From positions 1 through 64,000 of IMG/VR virus record IMGVR_UViG_3300020392_000011: a stretch of 64,000 bases of DNA; one strand, written 5' to 3'. Below the pieces are notes generated by a model. That model saw nothing but the letters and a program-made list of their open reading frames with translations, was not told where the DNA came from and did no database searches. The stretch's first letter is position 1. Each line of letters opens with the position of its first letter. This DNA is from a virus. This document shows, one piece after another, positions 20,549 to 47,089 of this stretch. The translations under genes and the position numbers were made by a program.

Positions 20549-20970
20549 TGACTGATAAATTAGAAAAAATGAAAACATCACTGACTAAAAATTTGCCAGT
20601 GAAAGAAAAGCTACCAAAAATAGCAATTGATAAAGATATAAAAGATGATTATGAGTTTTCTCGTGAAACATATAAGAACCTTATAAAGGTAGGTTCCAGG
20701 TCTCTAGATATATTAGCAGACTTAGCCAGAGAGTCAGAACACCCCAGAGCATTTGAAGTATTATCCAAATCTATAAAAGATATCGGTGACACAACTGAAA
20801 AATTGATGGCTCTACAAAAAGCTCATCAAGATTTAACAGCTGAAGAACGAGAAGAAGTGAAAAAGCTAACGCAGAATAATGTGTTTATTGGTAGCACTAC
20901 CGATTTACAAAGATTATTGTTAGATAAAGATAAGGATAGAGTCATAGATGCACCAAAAGATAAAGAATAG
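20548..20970 (+). CDS. gp16: Small terminase subunit gp16
   Basis: Position directly before gp17, length (140 aa) and all-helical charged composition with a coiled-coil core (ETYKNLIKVGSRSLDILADL) fit T4 gp16, the DNA-recognition ring that regulates packaging. Sequence similarity in this family is low, so context carries much of the call. It overlaps gp15 by one base and gp17 by 23 bases. Confidence 0.85.
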   Translation: MTDKLEKMKTSLTKNLPVKEKLPKIAIDKDIKDDYEFSRETYKNLIKVGSRSLDILADLARESEHPRAFEVLSKSIKDIGDTTEKLMALQKAHQDLTAEEREEVKKLTQNNVFIGSTTDLQRLLLDKDKDRVIDAPKDKE

Positions 20971-22561
20971 CGAATTTGGATATTTAGGCAATCCCTCAGT
21001 AAAGAGAGATGGCATAGAGTCTGAATTTACTAAAGATGAAGTTATTGAATACCAAAAGTGTATGCGTGATCCAGCATACTTTGCTAGAAAATACATAAAA
21101 ATTATTTCTCTTGATGAAGGATTAGTTCCATTTGATTTATACCCATACCAAGAAAAAATGTTTAATCATTTCTGCGAAAATAGATTTAATATTGTATTAG
21201 CATGTAGACAAAGCGGTAAATCAATTTCATCAGTTGTATTCTTATTATGGTATGCAATATTCCATCCAGAAAAAACTATTGCAATATTAGCTAACAAGGG
21301 CGCAGTTGCCAGAGAGATGTTAGCAAGAATTACTTTAGCACTAGAAAACTTGCCATTCTTTTTACAGCCAGGTTGTAAGGCCCTTAATAAAGGATCTATA
21401 GAATTTAGTAATAACTCTAAGATTATAGCCAATGCAACATCAGCAAGCTCAATAAGAGGTTTATCAGTTAACTTACTATTCTTAGATGAGTTTGCATTTG
21501 TAGATAAAGATGCTGATTTTTATACTTCAACATATCCAGTAGTATCTGCAGGTGACGATACTAAAGTAATAATAACATCTACCGCTAATGGTATTGGTAA
21601 TGTATATCATAAGTTATGGGAAGGTGCTACTCAAAAAACTAATGAATTCGTACCATTTAGAGTTGATTGGTGGGATGTACCAGGAAGAGACGAAAAATGG
21701 AAAGAGTCTACAGTAGCTAATACATCTGCATTACAATTTGAACAAGAGTTTGGTAATACATTCCATGGCCGAGGTAATACATTAATAGATGCGAATCATT
21801 TATTAGCTCAAATGGCTAAGGATCCAATACATATAAAAGAAAATGTATATCTGTATGATAAGCCTAAAGAAGGACATAGTTATGTTATATGTGTCGATGT
21901 GGCAAAGGGCAGAGGACAAGACTATTCTACATTTAATATAATTGACGTATCTGAAAAGCCATTTCAGCAAGTTGGTGTATTTAGAGATAATAAATTATCG
22001 CCAATGCTATTTCCCGACATTATATACAAATACGCAATGATGTACAATGAGGCTTATGTAGTAGTTGAAAGTAATGACCAAGGGTCAGTTGTTTGTAATG
22101 GCTTATACTACGATCTAGAATACGAAAATTTATTTGTAGAATCATCTATAAAAGCTAATGCTGTCGGCGTAACTATGACGAAAAGAGTTAAAAGGATTGG
22201 TTGTTCTACTATAAAAGATTTAATCGAAGAAAAAAGATTAATGATACACGATGCTCAGACGATTGTAGAATTAAGTACATTCGTATCTAAAGGTAACTCA
22301 TTTCAAGCTATTGCACCTAATCACGATGACCTTATGATGAATTTAGTATTGTTTGGTTGGTTTACTTCAACCGATGTTTTTGAATCATTAACAAATATTA
22401 ATATGAAAGATTTATTATATCGCGAAAGATTAAAAGAAATACAGGATGATATGCTCCCGTTTGGTATTATACGAGATAGTCACGGAGTTAAAGCTGATAA
22501 ATATATAAAAGACGATGATGGAAACATCTGGTTTGAAACAGAATGGAAGAGTAATTACTAA
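20948..22561 (+). CDS. gp17: Large terminase subunit gp17 (packaging ATPase/nuclease)
   Basis: 537 residues. N-terminal ATPase: Walker A at residues ~86-92 (CRQSGKS), Walker B at 176-181 (LLFLDE, with Asp180 and Glu181), and the coupling motif TSTANG. C-terminal RNase H-like nuclease: first acidic strand near residue 316 (VICVDVAKGRGQDYS), second near VVESNDQG, third in the NHDDLMMNLVLF helix. Headful-packaging motor that docks on the gp20 portal. The N-terminus overlaps gp16 in another frame; the start at ATG 20948 keeps the usual short N-terminal arm. Confidence 0.95.
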   Translation: MHQKIKNSEFGYLGNPSVKRDGIESEFTKDEVIEYQKCMRDPAYFARKYIKIISLDEGLVPFDLYPYQEKMFNHFCENRFNIVLACRQSGKSISSVVFLLWYAIFHPEKTIAILANKGAVAREMLARITLALENLPFFLQPGCKALNKGSIEFSNNSKIIANATSASSIRGLSVNLLFLDEFAFVDKDADFYTSTYPVVSAGDDTKVIITSTANGIGNVYHKLWEGATQKTNEFVPFRVDWWDVPGRDEKWKESTVANTSALQFEQEFGNTFHGRGNTLIDANHLLAQMAKDPIHIKENVYLYDKPKEGHSYVICVDVAKGRGQDYSTFNIIDVSEKPFQQVGVFRDNKLSPMLFPDIIYKYAMMYNEAYVVVESNDQGSVVCNGLYYDLEYENLFVESSIKANAVGVTMTKRVKRIGCSTIKDLIEEKRLMIHDAQTIVELSTFVSKGNSFQAIAPNHDDLMMNLVLFGWFTSTDVFESLTNINMKDLLYRERLKEIQDDMLPFGIIRDSHGVKADKYIKDDDGNIWFETEWKSNY

Positions 22562-23994
22562 TGGAAAAATTTAATCAATATTTTACAGAAAAGTTTGAAG
22601 AGCCATTAGAGCAAAATGAGCTTCATGTAGTAGTATTAGGTAAAGGTGGAGAAGAAGGAACCTTTGCCGATTTAGCTGAAGAAGTCTGTAAAGATAAAAA
22701 AATAAAATATAATCTAATAAATGTAGATGAAGCTTGGATATCACAAAAAGATGTTGAAATCGGTAAAGTAACTATTCAAAATGCTGATGGTAAAGACACA
22801 TCAGTGGAAATTGAGACACATAACTCTATTATATTTGTTAGAGCTGGTGCCATAAGCACATTAGCTGCACAAGCAATTGTATCATCATTACAAGTTATTG
22901 GATTCTTTCTTGTAAATGACCTAGAGTCTATGTTAGCATGTGACAATAAAATGTCAAATGTTATTATGCTAGAAAGAAATAATATACCTACACCTAGATC
23001 TTCCATTTTATCAAATAAAAAATCTATAGAAGATGCACATAAAAGAATTGGTGGCAAATTTCCAGTAATTATAAAAACATTAACAGGTACTCAAGGTGTT
23101 GGAGTATCTAAGGTTAACGATATGGCCTCATTAGTTTCGGTTGCACAATCTTTATGGAAATTTAATGCACAAATACTAATACAAGAATATTTTAATATGG
23201 AATCTGATGTTAGAACATTAGTCGTAAATGGTAAAATAATAGCATCAGCTGAAAGAGTTAGAACAGACGAAAAAGACTTTAGAAACAATGTACATTTAGG
23301 TGCATCAACTAAACCTTATAAATTATCAAGAGAAGAAGCTGATATTATAGTAAATGCAGCTAGAAGCAGTGGTGCTTTATATTGTGGAGTTGATAGTTGT
23401 TTACATAAAGGTAAACCATACATATTAGAAGTAAATGGTTCGCCAGGTATTAGATCACATTTTAATGCTTATGATCCTAATACTGGAAAATCATTAGGTA
23501 GAAAAAATGATAAAGCTGTTATTGGTACAATAATAGATTATTTTAGTGGAGAAAGAGCTAGAAGACCACTAATGAGATTAGAAGCTGGTTATATAGAGAC
23601 AGTTATATTAGATGGATTAGAAGATGATCCTATTAGAGCTAAATTTGATACAGGTAATAGTGCAGTGGCTACTATGTTTCATGTAGATAGCATGGAAGCT
23701 GACGGTGATTATGTTAAATGGACCAAGAATGGTAAAGCATTTAGAAGTGAAGTACTATATGTATCTGAACCAAAAAGAGGCCTTAAAGAGTTTGATAAAA
23801 GGCCAGTAATAGAACACGAACTAAGATTTAATAATAAAACATATAATGCGGAGATTGGATTGAGTACTAAAGATACTGCATCTGAAATGTTAGTTAATAG
23901 AAAACTAATGACTAAATTTAAGGTGTCAGTTAACCCTAACCGTAAATTTATATTAAGTAATGTGACCGAAGCTAACGACGATACGGACCACTAA
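22561..23994 (+). CDS. RimK-like ATP-grasp ligase fused to a RimB-like retropepsin domain
   Basis: 477 residues in two domains. Residues ~85-330 match RimK (glutamate ligase for ribosomal protein S6): IIKTLTGTQGVGV phosphate-binding loop, QEYFNMESDVRTLVVNGK, FRNNVHLG, and metal-binding YILEVNGSPG with Glu290 and Asn292. Residues ~340-465 resemble the RimB / ATP-dependent zinc protease family, with a retropepsin-like Asp363-Thr-Gly triad (KFDTGNSAVATMFHV) and a C-terminal block NRKLMTKFKVSVNPNRKFIL. In bacteria RimK and RimB are separate genes and modulate S6 modification. T4 has no such gene between gp17 and gp18. It overlaps gp17 by one base (TAATG) and ends before the late promoter of gp18. 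Substrate unknown: S6 or a virion protein. Confidence 0.8.
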   Translation: MEKFNQYFTEKFEEPLEQNELHVVVLGKGGEEGTFADLAEEVCKDKKIKYNLINVDEAWISQKDVEIGKVTIQNADGKDTSVEIETHNSIIFVRAGAISTLAAQAIVSSLQVIGFFLVNDLESMLACDNKMSNVIMLERNNIPTPRSSILSNKKSIEDAHKRIGGKFPVIIKTLTGTQGVGVSKVNDMASLVSVAQSLWKFNAQILIQEYFNMESDVRTLVVNGKIIASAERVRTDEKDFRNNVHLGASTKPYKLSREEADIIVNAARSSGALYCGVDSCLHKGKPYILEVNGSPGIRSHFNAYDPNTGKSLGRKNDKAVIGTIIDYFSGERARRPLMRLEAGYIETVILDGLEDDPIRAKFDTGNSAVATMFHVDSMEADGDYVKWTKNGKAFRSEVLYVSEPKRGLKEFDKRPVIEHELRFNNKTYNAEIGLSTKDTASEMLVNRKLMTKFKVSVNPNRKFILSNVTEANDDTDH

Positions 23995-24006
23995 GAACAA
24001 AAATAT

Positions 24007-24037
24007 TATAAATAATACTAGTGAATAACCGTATTAT
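24007..24037 (+). promoter_or_regulatory. Late promoter TATAAATA with overlapping hairpin
   Basis: TATAAATA at 24007-24014, 61 bases before gp18. ATAATAC (24012-24018) can pair with GTATTAT (24031-24037) around a 12-base loop, so a stem-loop could form at or near the 5' end of the late gp18 message; the left arm partly overlaps the promoter box. Confidence 0.7.
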
Positions 24038-24074: not shown

Positions 24075-25775
24075 ATGGCATTTCAAGTATCACCAGGCGT
24101 TCAAGTCAAAGAAATTGACGCTACGAACGTCGTCCCAGCGGTATCTACCAGTATTGGTGGATTTACGGGGCAATTTAAATGGGGATCAGCGGACGAGGTA
24201 ATTCAAGTAGGTTCTGAAAACGAACTTGTTGAACTATTTGGTGCGCCAGATTCAAGCACCGCAGAACACTTTCTTCAAGCGGCATCATTCTTAAAGTATG
24301 GAAACGCTTTGAAAGTAGTAAGAGTTGTAGCATCAGATGCGCGTAATGCGTCAGTTGGAGCAACAGAACTCTTATTGAAAAACGAATCGGAATATCTAGC
24401 AGCATCATTAAACGTGTCAGACCACGGAGAATGGGTAGCAAGATGTCCGGGAGTCTTGGGTAATGCATTAAGTGTAGACATTGTGACACAAAGTATTAGT
24501 TCTTCAGATTTTGACGCATGGCAACATGCATCACAATTTGATGGAATACCTGGTACTTCACAAAAAGCCCTAGACTTAGGCTTAACGACTAATGACGAAA
24601 TGCATGTTGTAGTATATGATAGAACTGGTGCAATTACTGGTACACCTAACACTGTATTAGAAACTTACCAATTCTTATCACAAGCATCAGATGCTAAGAA
24701 CCCAGAAGGTTCTTCAATATTCTACAAAGATGTAATTAACGCACAATCAGAGTATATCAGATGGGCAGCTCATTCTGCAGCTTTAAACGAAGCAGGATCG
24801 ACCCTAGCTGGTGTAGCTGGTGGAAGCTTCACCGTATCATCATCTGTAATTACAGATAATTTAGACGGTGGATTAGATGGAGCTAATGTAGCTCATGGCC
24901 AAGTAGTTGGTGGATTAGATCTACTAAAAGACGCATCAACAGTGGATGTAAATTTATTATTTGCACCTGCAGATGTCGGTGCTGGTGTTCAGATTGGAAC
25001 AAAACTTCACGAAGTTGCTGAACACAGAAAAGATTTAGTAGCATTTGTATCACCACCAGTTGCTGATACAGCTAATGTAGCAGCTGCTACAGCTGTAACT
25101 AATGTATTAGGCTACCATACCGATCTAGGTAAATCATCATCATATATGGTAATGGATTCAGGATCCGTATATGTATACGATAAGTATAACGATGTATTTA
25201 GATATATACCAGCAAATGGCTTAATGGCTGGCCTTTGTGCAAACACAGATGAAGTTGCGGATGCATGGTTCTCACCTGCAGGAGTCAACAGAGGTCAATT
25301 ACGTGGCGTTACTAAATTAGCGTATAACCCAACTAAAGCTCAAAGAGATTCATTATACAAATCACAAATTAACCCATTAGTATCTTTCCCAGGCCAAGGT
25401 ACAATGCTTTTCGGAGATAAAACAATGTTAAGCAGAGCATCAGCCTTTGATAGAATTAATGTAAGAAGGTTATTTATTGCGATAGAAAAAGCAATCTCAA
25501 CAGCAGCAGAAGCACAACTCTTTGAATTCAACGATGAATTTACAAGGGCTCAATTTAGAAATTTATTAGAGCCATTCCTAAGAGATGTGAAAGGTAGAAG
25601 AGGAATTACAGACTTTTTAGTGGTTTGTGATGACTCAAATAACACAAGTGCGGTTGTGGACTCTAATAGATTTGTAGCTGACATTTTTGTCAAGCCAGCA
25701 AGATCTATTAATTTCATAACTCTTAACTTTATTGCAACCAGAACTGGCGTAAGCTTCAACGAAGTAGCCGGATAA
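24075..25775 (+). CDS. gp18: Tail sheath protein gp18
   Basis: 566 residues. N-terminus FQVSPGVQVKEIDATNVVPA is the classical contractile sheath signature, followed by IGGFTGQFKWG and the C-terminal AEAQLFEFNDEFTRAQFRN and IFVKPARSINFI blocks found in T4-type sheath proteins. Forms the contractile tube around gp19. Ribosome site GAGAGGATAAAG. Gene order gp18-gp19-gp20 is as in T4. The first ~400 bases are visibly richer in G and C than the neighbours (several GCG codons), which may reflect selection on a highly expressed gene start. Confidence 0.95.
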   Translation: MAFQVSPGVQVKEIDATNVVPAVSTSIGGFTGQFKWGSADEVIQVGSENELVELFGAPDSSTAEHFLQAASFLKYGNALKVVRVVASDARNASVGATELLLKNESEYLAASLNVSDHGEWVARCPGVLGNALSVDIVTQSISSSDFDAWQHASQFDGIPGTSQKALDLGLTTNDEMHVVVYDRTGAITGTPNTVLETYQFLSQASDAKNPEGSSIFYKDVINAQSEYIRWAAHSAALNEAGSTLAGVAGGSFTVSSSVITDNLDGGLDGANVAHGQVVGGLDLLKDASTVDVNLLFAPADVGAGVQIGTKLHEVAEHRKDLVAFVSPPVADTANVAAATAVTNVLGYHTDLGKSSSYMVMDSGSVYVYDKYNDVFRYIPANGLMAGLCANTDEVADAWFSPAGVNRGQLRGVTKLAYNPTKAQRDSLYKSQINPLVSFPGQGTMLFGDKTMLSRASAFDRINVRRLFIAIEKAISTAAEAQLFEFNDEFTRAQFRNLLEPFLRDVKGRRGITDFLVVCDDSNNTSAVVDSNRFVADIFVKPARSINFITLNFIATRTGVSFNEVAG

Positions 25776-28093: not shown

Positions 28094-28750
28094 ATGAAGC
28101 TAATAGCAGAATATAACGATAGCCATTTAGAAGTTATCGAAGAAAAAGTAAACGGTAAGAAATCTCTTGCAATTGAAGGCGTATTCATGCAAGCAGATAA
28201 GAAAAACCGTAACGGCCGAGTTTATGAGAGAAAAATCTTAGAAAAAGCCGTAGATAAATACGTTACAGAACAAGTAAAGACTGGTAGAGCGGTCGGAGAG
28301 TTAAATCACCCTGACGGACCGACTATCAATCTTGATAAAGTTTCACATAAGATCACAGATCTCAGATTTGAGGGAAGTGATGTTATTGGAAAAGCTTCAA
28401 TCTTAAAAACCCCTATGGGACAAATCGTTGAAGGTTTGCTCGATGGCGGTGTAAAGCTTGGAGTATCAAGTCGTGGTATGGGTAGTCTTGTGCAGAAACA
28501 AGGTACGACATTCGTGAATGACGACTTTTTATTAGCCACTGTTGATATAGTACAGGATCCTAGTGCTCCTGAGGCTTTTGTCAATGGTATAATGGAAGGC
28601 GTTGATTGGATATGGGAGAATGGCGTATTAGTTCCACAGGAAATTGAAAGAATTGAGACTGAAATAAAAGAAGCTAGACCGTCGGTTAGACCGGCCGTCG
28701 AAATAAGAGCTTTCAAAAATTTCCTCTCTAAACTCAAAAACTCTAATTAA
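28094..28750 (+). CDS. gp21: Prohead core protease gp21
   Basis: 218 residues. Herpes/T4-type serine protease: catalytic His72 in VGELNHPDGP and Ser125 or Ser126 in LGVSSRGMGSL, plus NRNGRVYERKILEKAV near residue 40. It cuts scaffold and capsid proteins after L/I-x-E during head maturation. Ribosome site AGAGGATTA. Placed between the small core gene and the scaffold gp22. Confidence 0.95.
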   Translation: MKLIAEYNDSHLEVIEEKVNGKKSLAIEGVFMQADKKNRNGRVYERKILEKAVDKYVTEQVKTGRAVGELNHPDGPTINLDKVSHKITDLRFEGSDVIGKASILKTPMGQIVEGLLDGGVKLGVSSRGMGSLVQKQGTTFVNDDFLLATVDIVQDPSAPEAFVNGIMEGVDWIWENGVLVPQEIERIETEIKEARPSVRPAVEIRAFKNFLSKLKNSN

Positions 28751-28762
28751 GGGAGAAAAATT

Positions 28763-29920
28763 ATGTCAATCGACGAAAATAAAGTAGAAAACGAAATAGT
28801 CGAAGGCGTTGAAGAGGAGCAACTTCAAGAGAGCGAAGAAGTTTCTGAAGAGCTTGTTGAAAATGAGAATTTAGACGAGGAAGCAGAAGCGGAAGCTGAA
28901 GAAGTTACTGAAATGCACGGTAAGGAAGAAGAAGAGGAAGAAGACGAGGACGACAAAAAGGAATCCAAAGTCAAAGAAATTACTATTCCAAAAACTAAAG
29001 CTGGTGTAATTCAAGCTGCTGTCGAAATGCTTAAAAAGGCTAGAAAAGAAGACGCGCAAAAACTTTTTGCTAAAATGTCAAAAATGGACGAATCCGAAGA
29101 TGACGGTTCAGTTAAGAAAGCTATTGATGCTGTAAAACCTGAAAAGGACAAATCAATTAAAGCTAAGCCTAGCGATGCTAGTGCTAAAATTGAATCAGTT
29201 GACTTTGAAGAAGATTTAGATGCATTAGTTGCAGAAGAAGCTACACTTTCTGATGAATTCAGAGGAAAAGCTGGAGCTATCTTTGAAGCAGTATTAACAT
29301 CTAAGCTTTCAGCTCAAATTGATAGATTAGAAAGCGAATACGCGCAAAACCTCGAAGAAGAAGTAACTGAAATTCAGAACGGCTTAGTCGAGAAGGTAGA
29401 TTCATACCTAAACTATGTAGTTGAAAACTGGATGAAAGAAAATGAAATAGCAGTAACTGAAGGTTTAAGAACTGAAATTGCTGAAGAATTCATGTCTTCA
29501 TTACAAACAGTATTCAAGGAACATTATATTGAAGTTCCAGAAGGAAAAGATGATCTAGTGGAAGATTTACATTCACAGGTTTCTGAACTAGAAGAACAAC
29601 TCAATAAATCCACAGAAGATTCAATCGATCTATTTAATAAAGTTCAATCTTACGAGAGAGCTGAAGTAGTAAGAGAAGCATCTTCAGGGCTTGCTGAAAC
29701 TGAAGCTGAAAAATTAGCATCTTTAGTTGAAGATATAGAATTTGATAACAAAGAAAATTTCGAAATGAAAGTAGTAACTGTTAAAGAATCTTACTTCAAG
29801 AAAGAAGTTAACGAATCAGTTGACGAAGTAGACAGTCTCTTAGGAGAAGATAATCAAGAAGTTGATATGTCAGATTCTATGACTAGATACACACAAGCTA
29901 TAACAAAATTTAATAAGTAA
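28763..29920 (+). CDS. gp22: Prohead scaffold protein gp22
   Basis: 385 residues with an extremely acidic N-terminal third (runs of Glu/Asp around residues 30-75) and a long coiled coil in the C-terminal half (LHSQVSELEEQLNKS). This matches the main scaffold of T4-like proheads, which is destroyed by gp21. The call rests mainly on position between gp21 and gp23 and on composition. Starts after GGGAGAAAAATT. Confidence 0.88.
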   Translation: MSIDENKVENEIVEGVEEEQLQESEEVSEELVENENLDEEAEAEAEEVTEMHGKEEEEEEDEDDKKESKVKEITIPKTKAGVIQAAVEMLKKARKEDAQKLFAKMSKMDESEDDGSVKKAIDAVKPEKDKSIKAKPSDASAKIESVDFEEDLDALVAEEATLSDEFRGKAGAIFEAVLTSKLSAQIDRLESEYAQNLEEEVTEIQNGLVEKVDSYLNYVVENWMKENEIAVTEGLRTEIAEEFMSSLQTVFKEHYIEVPEGKDDLVEDLHSQVSELEEQLNKSTEDSIDLFNKVQSYERAEVVREASSGLAETEAEKLASLVEDIEFDNKENFEMKVVTVKESYFKKEVNESVDEVDSLLGEDNQEVDMSDSMTRYTQAITKFNK

Positions 29921-46633: not shown

Positions 46634-47089
46634 ATGGTAAGAACTAACTTGAACGTACCTCGTTCACTATTCGTAGGATTCGAAGGTTTATTCGATGAAC
46701 TAGAAAGAATCCACACTTCAGCTCGATCCGGTTCGGATAATTATCCACCTCACAATATTGTGAAGATCGATGATGAGAAATTCTTAATTGAGATGGCAAT
46801 TGCCGGATTCACAAAAGAAGAAATCGCACTAGAAGTAAAAGATGGAATTCTAAAGATTACGGGTAACCGTGAATCTGATGATAGGGAATATGCGTGGAAA
46901 GGTATTTCATCCCGCAAATTTGAGAAGAGCTTCCGTCTCTCAGAATTTGTCGTAATAGATGGTGCCGACTTAGAGAATGGAATACTCGTGGTGTATGCCA
47001 GAGTTGAACTTCCAGAAGAGAGGCGTCCTAGGAAGATCGAAATAGGGTCTGCTGGGGCATCAAAGAAAAAATCTTTTTTGAAAGGCTAG
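46634..47089 (+). CDS. hsp20: Small heat shock protein Hsp20
   Basis: 151 residues. Alpha-crystallin domain in the middle: NIVKIDDEKFLIEMAIAGFT, KEEIALEVKDGILKITGNRE, KFEKSFRLSEFV and the C-terminal I-x-I-like RPRKIEIG. ATP-independent holdase; related genes are common in marine T4-like phages. With a late promoter it is probably made with virion proteins and may aid assembly. Very strong ribosome site (AGGAGGAAAG). Confidence 0.92.
   Translation: MVRTNLNVPRSLFVGFEGLFDELERIHTSARSGSDNYPPHNIVKIDDEKFLIEMAIAGFTKEEIALEVKDGILKITGNRESDDREYAWKGISSRKFEKSFRLSEFVVIDGADLENGILVVYARVELPEERRPRKIEIGSAGASKKKSFLKG

Follow-up and report, generated by a model that had tools for sequence, protein, structure and literature searches.

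Positions 1 to 64,000 of the IMG/VR virus record IMGVR_UViG_3300020392_000011 (hereafter the window) contain a single reading frame of 477 aa (22561-23994, + strand) in which a RimK-type ATP-grasp ligase (K) is followed by a RimB-type retropepsin (B), an order designated here as K-B. The protein opens with about ten residues that match the capsid-targeting sequence of bacteriophage T4 internal proteins, a feature that the preliminary description of this DNA, which had recognised the fusion, did not mention. On this ground, packaging and injection are the likeliest mode of action. We thus propose that the fusion is a glutamate ligase and poly-Glu protease, coupled in its synthesis to the terminase gp17, which would be packaged in the phage head, injected into the next host and there retune translation; the probability of this reading is put at about 0.5.

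The frame lies exactly where the preliminary description had placed it, and both domain identities proposed there have held. Pfam searches returned RimK (PF08443; residues 128-299, 22942-23457; 121.4 bits against a cut-off of 21) and Zn_protease (PF05618; 29.8 bits against a cut-off of 27), and the NCBIfam family rimK_fam was narrowly under its cut-off (142.4 versus 143.4 bits). The ligase half, comprising an N-terminal domain and the ATP-grasp core, spans residues 21-330 (22621..23550, +), and the retropepsin half residues 343-464 (23587..23952, +). The GTQGVGV nucleotide loop (residues 176-182; 23086..23106, +), Glu290, Asn292 and the catalytic Asp363-Thr-Gly (23647..23655, +) were all recovered at the positions first given for them. 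In alignment A2, which comprises 50 K-B sequences picked by us (15 of the window type and 35 of the Mosig type, both introduced below), K172, G176, G179, G181, V182, D278, E290, N292 and FDTGNS (362-367) are invariant, and active-site residues are thus retained across homologues; D-T-G-N is also invariant in 32 B domains that include those of jumbo phages. D278, E290 and N292 (23392..23436, +), which we take from the ATP-grasp family to be the metal-binding residues, correspond in the alignment to the cellular RimK motif GVD...EVN.

An AlphaFold model of the fusion, based on an alignment of 50 phage sequences (mean pLDDT 76.7; below 50 for residues 1-14), predicts a RimK fold for the K half, the best fold matches being RimK crystal structures (7qys, TM-score on target 0.85). 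A separate model of the B half (mean pLDDT 78.7) was matched by VIA-align to 2pma, of the DUF785/RimB family (Z 14.1, rmsd 2.5, 113 aligned), to RloA 9g58 (Z 14.1, rmsd 2.2, 109 aligned), to RloA2 (Z 12.9) and to retroviral proteases (Z about 9-10). A profile of the B halves alone also matched the RimB-family retropepsin structures 2pma (6.8e-9), 9g59 (5.5e-7) and 9g58 (8.1e-6). Pfam, profile and predicted fold thus place the C-terminal half with RimB-family retropepsins and not in an unrelated family.

Among named phage records, K-B homologues of the window protein were found in Pelagibacter phage Mosig and in the Yersinia ruckeri phages GN1 and YerA41. Both the Mosig protein (QOI68969.1; annotated 'putative glutathione synthetase') and the YerA41 protein (QSM00767.1; GenBank label 'structural protein') are full-length K-B proteins, with 27.7% identity over 90% and 27.6% identity over 79% of the window protein, respectively. 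Database searches of IMG/VR revealed 20 window-type loci, and the Mosig protein matched 221 stretches, 80 of which were kept and read. As the FDTGN motif lies within the same open frame as the K half in 80/80 of these Mosig-type stretches, all 80 are K-B, and relatives of the Mosig enzyme are frequent in viral contigs. No IMG/VR relatives of the YerA41 protein were found with the YerA41 query.

The ligase-domain tree comprised 63 rows, including five cellular frames with the reverse order (B-K); its rows labelled phage include contigs from bacterial or archaeal bins (L125-L127 and L129-L133), L126 being of unassigned origin. A single clade (100/99) contains 32 K-B rows and four phage K-only rows, apart from cellular RimK and cellular B-K, and the five B-K rows form a separate clade (100/100) inside cellular RimK. 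The nesting of K-only rows within the K-B clade suggests loss of the B half. Long branches were flagged by the tree program at the main splits, including that between window-type and cellular rows, so that the deep joins are unsure.

The genome scan returned 174 relatives, and among the 80 loci kept the K-B order occupies a single ORF in L125-L127 and L129-L132, L128 being interrupted by N stretches. In L125, L127 and L128, the fusion lies between regA and gp43, as in phages. These three and L133 carry a phage regA-RimK-gp43 block on 3-11 kb contigs binned as Pacearchaeota, Parcubacteria, alphaproteobacterial and Flavobacteriales, and probably represent misbinned phage DNA within public genomes. 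A T4-type portal occurs on two of the four Firmicutes-binned contigs (G007:C82 and G008:C1), and for L129 and L130 on another contig of the same bin. Wherever judgeable, K-B proteins from bacterial bins are on phage-like contigs, two of them of 400 kb with a T4-type portal. L126, on a 5.4-kb contig, may be a cellular K-B protein. Once the nine loci L125-L133 had been removed by hand as phage or unassigned, 63 cellular RimK frames with a visible start were left; 15 of these exceed 420 aa, seven have a DTG near the start (B-K), and the K-B order, with DTG near the end, was found in 0/63. L192 is an eighth cellular B-K frame, and the matches of L191, L193, L194 and L204 are split over two frames. 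Vibrio plasmid matches obtained by tblastn were considered as K-B fusions and rejected, as they correspond to adjacent rimK and rimB-like genes with an intervening stop (the rimB-like gene being read only in L028). Among 26 genomes of the family to which the L128 bin belongs, two gave a RimK match of about 220 bits, and the remaining matches scored below 79 bits; since the L128 contig is probably misbinned phage DNA, nothing firm on the host can be drawn from this survey.

Fusions of the two enzymes have been published in bacteria. The hybrid DP2392 of Desulfotalea psychrophila resembles the phage protein in combining a RimB-type retropepsin and a RimK ligase in one chain, but has RimB first, whereas the phage protein has RimK first and falls outside the cellular B-K clade; the hybrid protease is active on poly-glutamylated RpsF, and such hybrids occur in 12% of rim-bearing accessions, mostly Flavobacteriales and Rhodobacterales (PMC11957791). 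In Pseudomonas, the same two activities, as judged by homology, are encoded by separate genes of rimABK and are functionally coupled: RimB trims the RimK product, stimulates RimK and cleaves poly-Glu (PMC11957791), the latter activity being also known for RloA (PMC11957791, PMC12239564). The phage version differs in being fused, virus-borne and tagged. The suggestion that one chain might both add and trim glutamates is consistent with this published biochemistry of RimK, RimB and the hybrid. The preliminary description knew of no phage system of this form; the K-B order appears to be new, but not the fusion as such, since RimB-RimK hybrids are known in bacteria (PMC11957791). The covered portion of that source reports 136 rim proteins near possible mobile elements and does not mention a phage hybrid, and no mention of the phage K-B clade, or of a capsid-type tag on it, was found in the portions searched of the literature, including PMC4431377, PMC7824862, PMC7029224, PMC6722890 and PMC9004378. 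A RimK-type ATP-grasp is also present in marine T4-like cyanophages, as the 'ribosomal protein S6 glutaminyl transferase' of phrog_2599; the two members examined, from S-RIM8 and S-RIM12, have neither the RimB half nor the tag, and fall on the cellular side of the tree split. The 2009 work on amidoligases by Iyer et al. may discuss phage ATP-grasp enzymes, and an earlier mention of the phage fusion is thus possible. In S-RIM8, two small genes separate gp17 from the untagged RimK-only gene upstream of it (L026, 4827-5705), which places RimK-type genes near gp17 in two separate lineages.

In T4, the first ten residues of internal proteins suffice for targeting to the head, residues 4 and 7 governing targeting and residues 8 and 10 processing, and the prohead protease gp21 cleaves after the Glu of this targeting sequence (PMC9026906); capsid targeting is also treated in PMC5694885, PMC3012670 and PMC9391042. 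The internal proteins ipII and ipIII start with MKTYQEFIAE, and the window fusion with MEKFNQYFTE (residues 1-10; 22561..22590, +). The two share the same register, with aromatic residues at positions 4 and 7, a hydrophobic residue at position 8 and Glu at position 10 (Phe4, Tyr7, Phe8 and Glu10 in the fusion), which is the complete T4 targeting pattern. In alignment A1, a variable linker (residues 11-20; 22591..22620, +) separates this tag from the first beta-strand. In A2, each of the 48 rows extending to the N-terminus has M in column 1, F in column 4, Y/F in column 7, L/I/F in column 8 and E in column 10, the aligner inserting a gap in rows with a later Glu, and only M1, F4 and E10 are nearly invariant within residues 1-20. 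Several divergent window-type relatives (61-63% identity) come still nearer the T4 tag, with MEKFTEYLTED, MEKFTKFLTED, MKLFNNFLEEE and MEKFNEFLIEK.

The tag was then counted among ORFs of at least 60 aa, with alternative starts allowed in the first 40 codons, by means of a strict motif required within the first 14 residues: [FYW]xx[FYW][FILVM]xE. Expected numbers were derived from internal positions; they assume a single start for each ORF and so underestimate the true expectation, since other starts were allowed. In the window, the motif singles out the fusion (1/63 ORFs; expected 0.12), as it does in the Mosig stretches (1/73; expected 0.09), and in the T4 stretches its 2/58 matches are ipII and ipIII, the names being confirmed (expected 0.18). 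Melnitz has 4/47 (expected 0.17), including its RimK and one match from an inner start, and C48C1 has 1/44, from an inner start (expected 0.05). None occurred in the 31 ORFs of YerA41. The strict motif is present in 78/78 Mosig-type starts (L091 and L093, whose matches do not run from residue 1, being omitted) and in 6/16 window-type starts, or 16/16 if the Glu may sit one residue later; the latter 16 omit L012 (internal stop), L014 (match from residue 18, with the tag MKNFNDFFIPEE visible), L017 (no tag) and L019 (partial). A relaxed motif was found in 0/63 cellular RimK frames. With a looser two-part pattern, 9/338 phage ORFs were retrieved, five of which are accounted for by ipII, ipIII and three fusion or RimK genes. 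The K-B enzyme is carried by many T4-like viruses, and in most of these it begins with a signal resembling that by which T4 loads proteins into its head.

The window also encodes a T4-type prohead protease gp21 (28094..28750, +; PF03420 Peptidase_S77, 144.3 bits), scaffold gp22, capsid gp23 and a portal. The fusion would be synthesised late, probably coupled to gp17, and its first ten residues would act as a T4-type capsid-targeting sequence docking the enzyme on the prohead core. There, gp21 would be expected to cut the tag after the hydrophobic-x-Glu sequence, and the enzyme would remain in the head with the DNA and enter the next host by injection. The K half could then ligate glutamate and the B half trim poly-Glu, most simply on host S6, which by analogy with the biochemistry of the family is probably the substrate, just as glutamate is presumed from that biochemistry to be the residue added. 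The phage could in this way bias translation from the first minute, in parallel with the action of T4 Alt on RNA polymerase; Alt is an enzyme that is packaged, injected and modifies a host machine (PMC9026906). Like the fusion, T4 IPII and IPIII carry a targeting sequence of this pattern in their first ten residues (PMC9026906); the enzyme bodies of IPI-IPIII and Alt are unrelated to it, and its packaging is suggested by the sequence. In YerA41, LC-MS/MS of purified particles identified 63 phage proteins, and injection was suggested for the enzymes among them (PMC7354516). If the proposal is true, the fusion would travel in the head and act on translation, as the counterpart of Alt for transcription. 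Ribosome modification by RimK and RimB is a known bacterial regulatory device, and the virus-borne clade of reverse order would probably be delivered with the DNA. Mosig infects Pelagibacter (SAR11), which is abundant in the ocean, and its isolate EXVC030M on strain HTCC1062 makes the idea testable.

Several observations weigh against this proposal. The tag is absent from L017 (63% identical), L125 (52%), L126 and YerA41, the latter being the sole family member with a virion annotation, which itself comes from the GenBank label. Of 29 hand-picked family members, about one per subgroup, 24 have the aromatic pair and 19 the two-part motif. Compared with T4, the Glu lies one residue later in L007-L016 and their relatives, later still in L216, L218 and L268, and further on in L250 and L257; L244 has none at this place, and the jumbo-phage fusions L129-L132 are devoid of it, L131 also missing one aromatic residue. 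In 60 kb of G001, a window-type phage, the strict motif picks out an ORF other than the fusion (1/65; expected 0.11), whose own Glu comes one residue later than the motif allows. The tag counts come from homologous and hence non-independent sequences. The equivalog for S6-L-glutamate ligase, NF007764 / PRK10446, scored 97.7 bits against an NCBIfam cut-off of 331, so that S6 is put forward as the target on grounds of family resemblance. Finally, Mosig-type genes are located among replication genes.

The untagged members and the position of the Mosig-type copies in the replication cluster favour instead an ordinary auxiliary gene, whose product would act on host S6 or free glutamate only within the cell that makes it, the motif being due to chance or to some other local signal. 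The cyanophage RimKs of S-RIM8 and S-RIM12, without tag or RimB, are in line with this explanation. Against this explanation stand a strict register found in every Mosig-type start counted and, allowing for the one-residue shift, in every window-type start counted, and a stretch of 20 residues in which M1, F4 and E10 are the sole nearly invariant positions and residue 7 is always Y or F. Moreover, the same motif singles out ipII and ipIII in T4, and the YerA41 annotation also speaks for a virion protein. We regard the auxiliary gene as unlikely, but as an alternative to be taken seriously.

A role in head assembly, in which a prohead-targeted enzyme would cut or add poly-Glu on the scaffold gp22 or on another core or virion protein, seems quite improbable. 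The window gp22 (28763..29920, +; PF25623, 202.9 bits) was considered as a substrate since it has an EEEEEE run at residue 55, and runs reach nine Glu in relatives, including G001; RimB is reported to need about six contiguous Glu and also to cut an internal 8-Glu linker (PMC11957791). Runs of at least six Glu were found in 9/15 K-B-carrying contigs and in 0/11 with an empty gp17-gp18 junction, a count confounded by relatedness. It was made on 80 gp22 loci plus six more, leaving out contigs with an unreadable junction and the K-only carriers L250 and L257 (runs of five and four), with L013 and L235 counted once as one contig and G001 scored as a carrier via its other stretch. Runs of 6-9 Glu are seen in L005, L007, L013 and L033 beside the window. 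The other six K-B carriers reach only 3-5 Glu in a row; they include L215, the partial fusion of which shares about 90% identity with that of the window. The gp22 run is therefore not the general substrate. The Mosig stretches have no run of at least five Glu, the presence of gp22 there not being established, and T4, which has no PF08443 match, matures its heads without an enzyme of this kind. The run, which is not conserved with the fusion, was thus rejected as a required partner or substrate; the earlier suggestion that the enzyme might modify a virion protein thereby loses its sole concrete candidate, while its S6 alternative is the one retained here. Least probable of all is that the ligase half, like LysX, MptN and CofF, joins a different amino acid or substrate, which would make S6 and glutamate the wrong labels: the MptN (115 bits) and LysX (96 bits) matches, the absence of any equivalog cut-off reached among the 25 NCBIfam families in the matches listed, and an identity to cellular RimK of about 30-35% in the best matches leave room for it, but RimK is the best match by sequence and fold, the DFR-N-V/L-H motif is RimK-like, and the partner domain belongs to a family whose tested members cleave poly-Glu (PMC12239564).

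The genomic neighbourhood of the packaged enzyme we propose was surveyed with 13 probe genes. As first described, the window gene lies between a T4-type terminase large subunit gene (gp17; 20948..22561, +; PF03237/PF17289), whose TAA overlaps the ATG of the fusion by one base, and the tail sheath gene (gp18; 24075..25775, +; PF04984 and PF17482). This position is shared by all window-type loci with visible neighbours, gp17 being next before in 19/19 and gp18 next after in 17/17. The preliminary description took this place to favour late expression, but it is not the key to the enzyme: Mosig-type copies are preceded by regA in 79/79 and followed by gp43, or by a homologue of the window ORF 50294, in 70/70. 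L125 also lies between regA and gp43, and its 52% identity to the window protein implies that the gene has moved between the two sites. Of the contigs with a readable gp17-gp18 junction, 11 have it empty; one of these is C48C1, the isolate whose terminase is nearest (68%) and in which nothing matches the fusion. In L250 and L257, the junction is occupied by a RimK-only gene with a tag-like start.

Leaders of the same kind were also found on other phage proteins, which lends further support to packaging. With a looser tag that does not require Glu, 20/70 ORFs were retrieved (expected 0.56) from a 60-kb portion of the 410-kb jumbo-phage contig, which also bears a K-B fusion, and 9/98 (expected 0.92) from 100 kb of a 400-kb jumbo-phage contig; when Glu was required, eight (expected 0.06) and five (expected 0.19) ORFs were left, respectively. 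These expectations carry a factor of 1.5 for other starts. As controls, the looser form without Glu gave 3/56 for T4, 1/61 for the window, 2/62 for G001, 1/70 for Mosig, 1/46 for Melnitz, 0/43 for C48C1 and 0/29 for YerA41. Several of the jumbo-phage matches are mutual paralogues (DUF285 repeat proteins), and each contig has one or more that resemble a hydrophobic spurious frame; the occurrence of a NUDIX hydrolase among these ORFs indicates that the leader is common to unrelated bodies. The two contigs, G007:C82 (L210-L212) and G008:C1 (L205-L209), of 400-410 kb and with a T4-type portal, were found in Firmicutes/Erysipelotrichaceae bins, and their shared leaders include MKKLNQFITEKF, MKSINSFLTEA and MQSFNRYITERE. 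This shared leader is possibly a widespread capsid-targeting tag. A broader proposition is more tentative, with odds that we would place below even: that T4-type phages, including one of SAR11, carry and inject a poly-glutamylation machine, ligase and eraser in one, which would retune the ribosome via S6 from entry onwards and be loaded by a tag borne by many unrelated proteins.

The tag result suggests a simple sequence rule by which head-borne proteins might be predicted in T4-like and jumbo phages. DUF6267 proteins (PF19782; L320-L324) have a tag-type start in C48C1 (MLDFKNFITEQ) and Melnitz (INFSKYITED), and none in S-RIM8, S-RIM12 and G001. Neighbouring frames of 360-420 aa show the same type of tag, namely MKKFSAFLTEAEK in S-RIM8 and S-RIM12, MKVKNFSDYIVEAS in G001 and MQGFKTFLSEAK in Melnitz. 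DUF6267 proteins and these neighbouring frames are candidate internal head proteins of T4-like phages.

Two minor features of the window concern the sites of the fusion. Between the fusion and the sheath gene, the site TATAAATA (24007..24014, +) matches what we take to be the T4 late-promoter consensus; the window has 16 such matches, which is not above chance (15.3 expected), all 16 being on the + strand, that of its long genes. Between regA and the DNA polymerase gene, which is the site of the fusion in Mosig-type phages, the window encodes a small heat-shock protein (46634-47089; HSP20, 57.8 bits).

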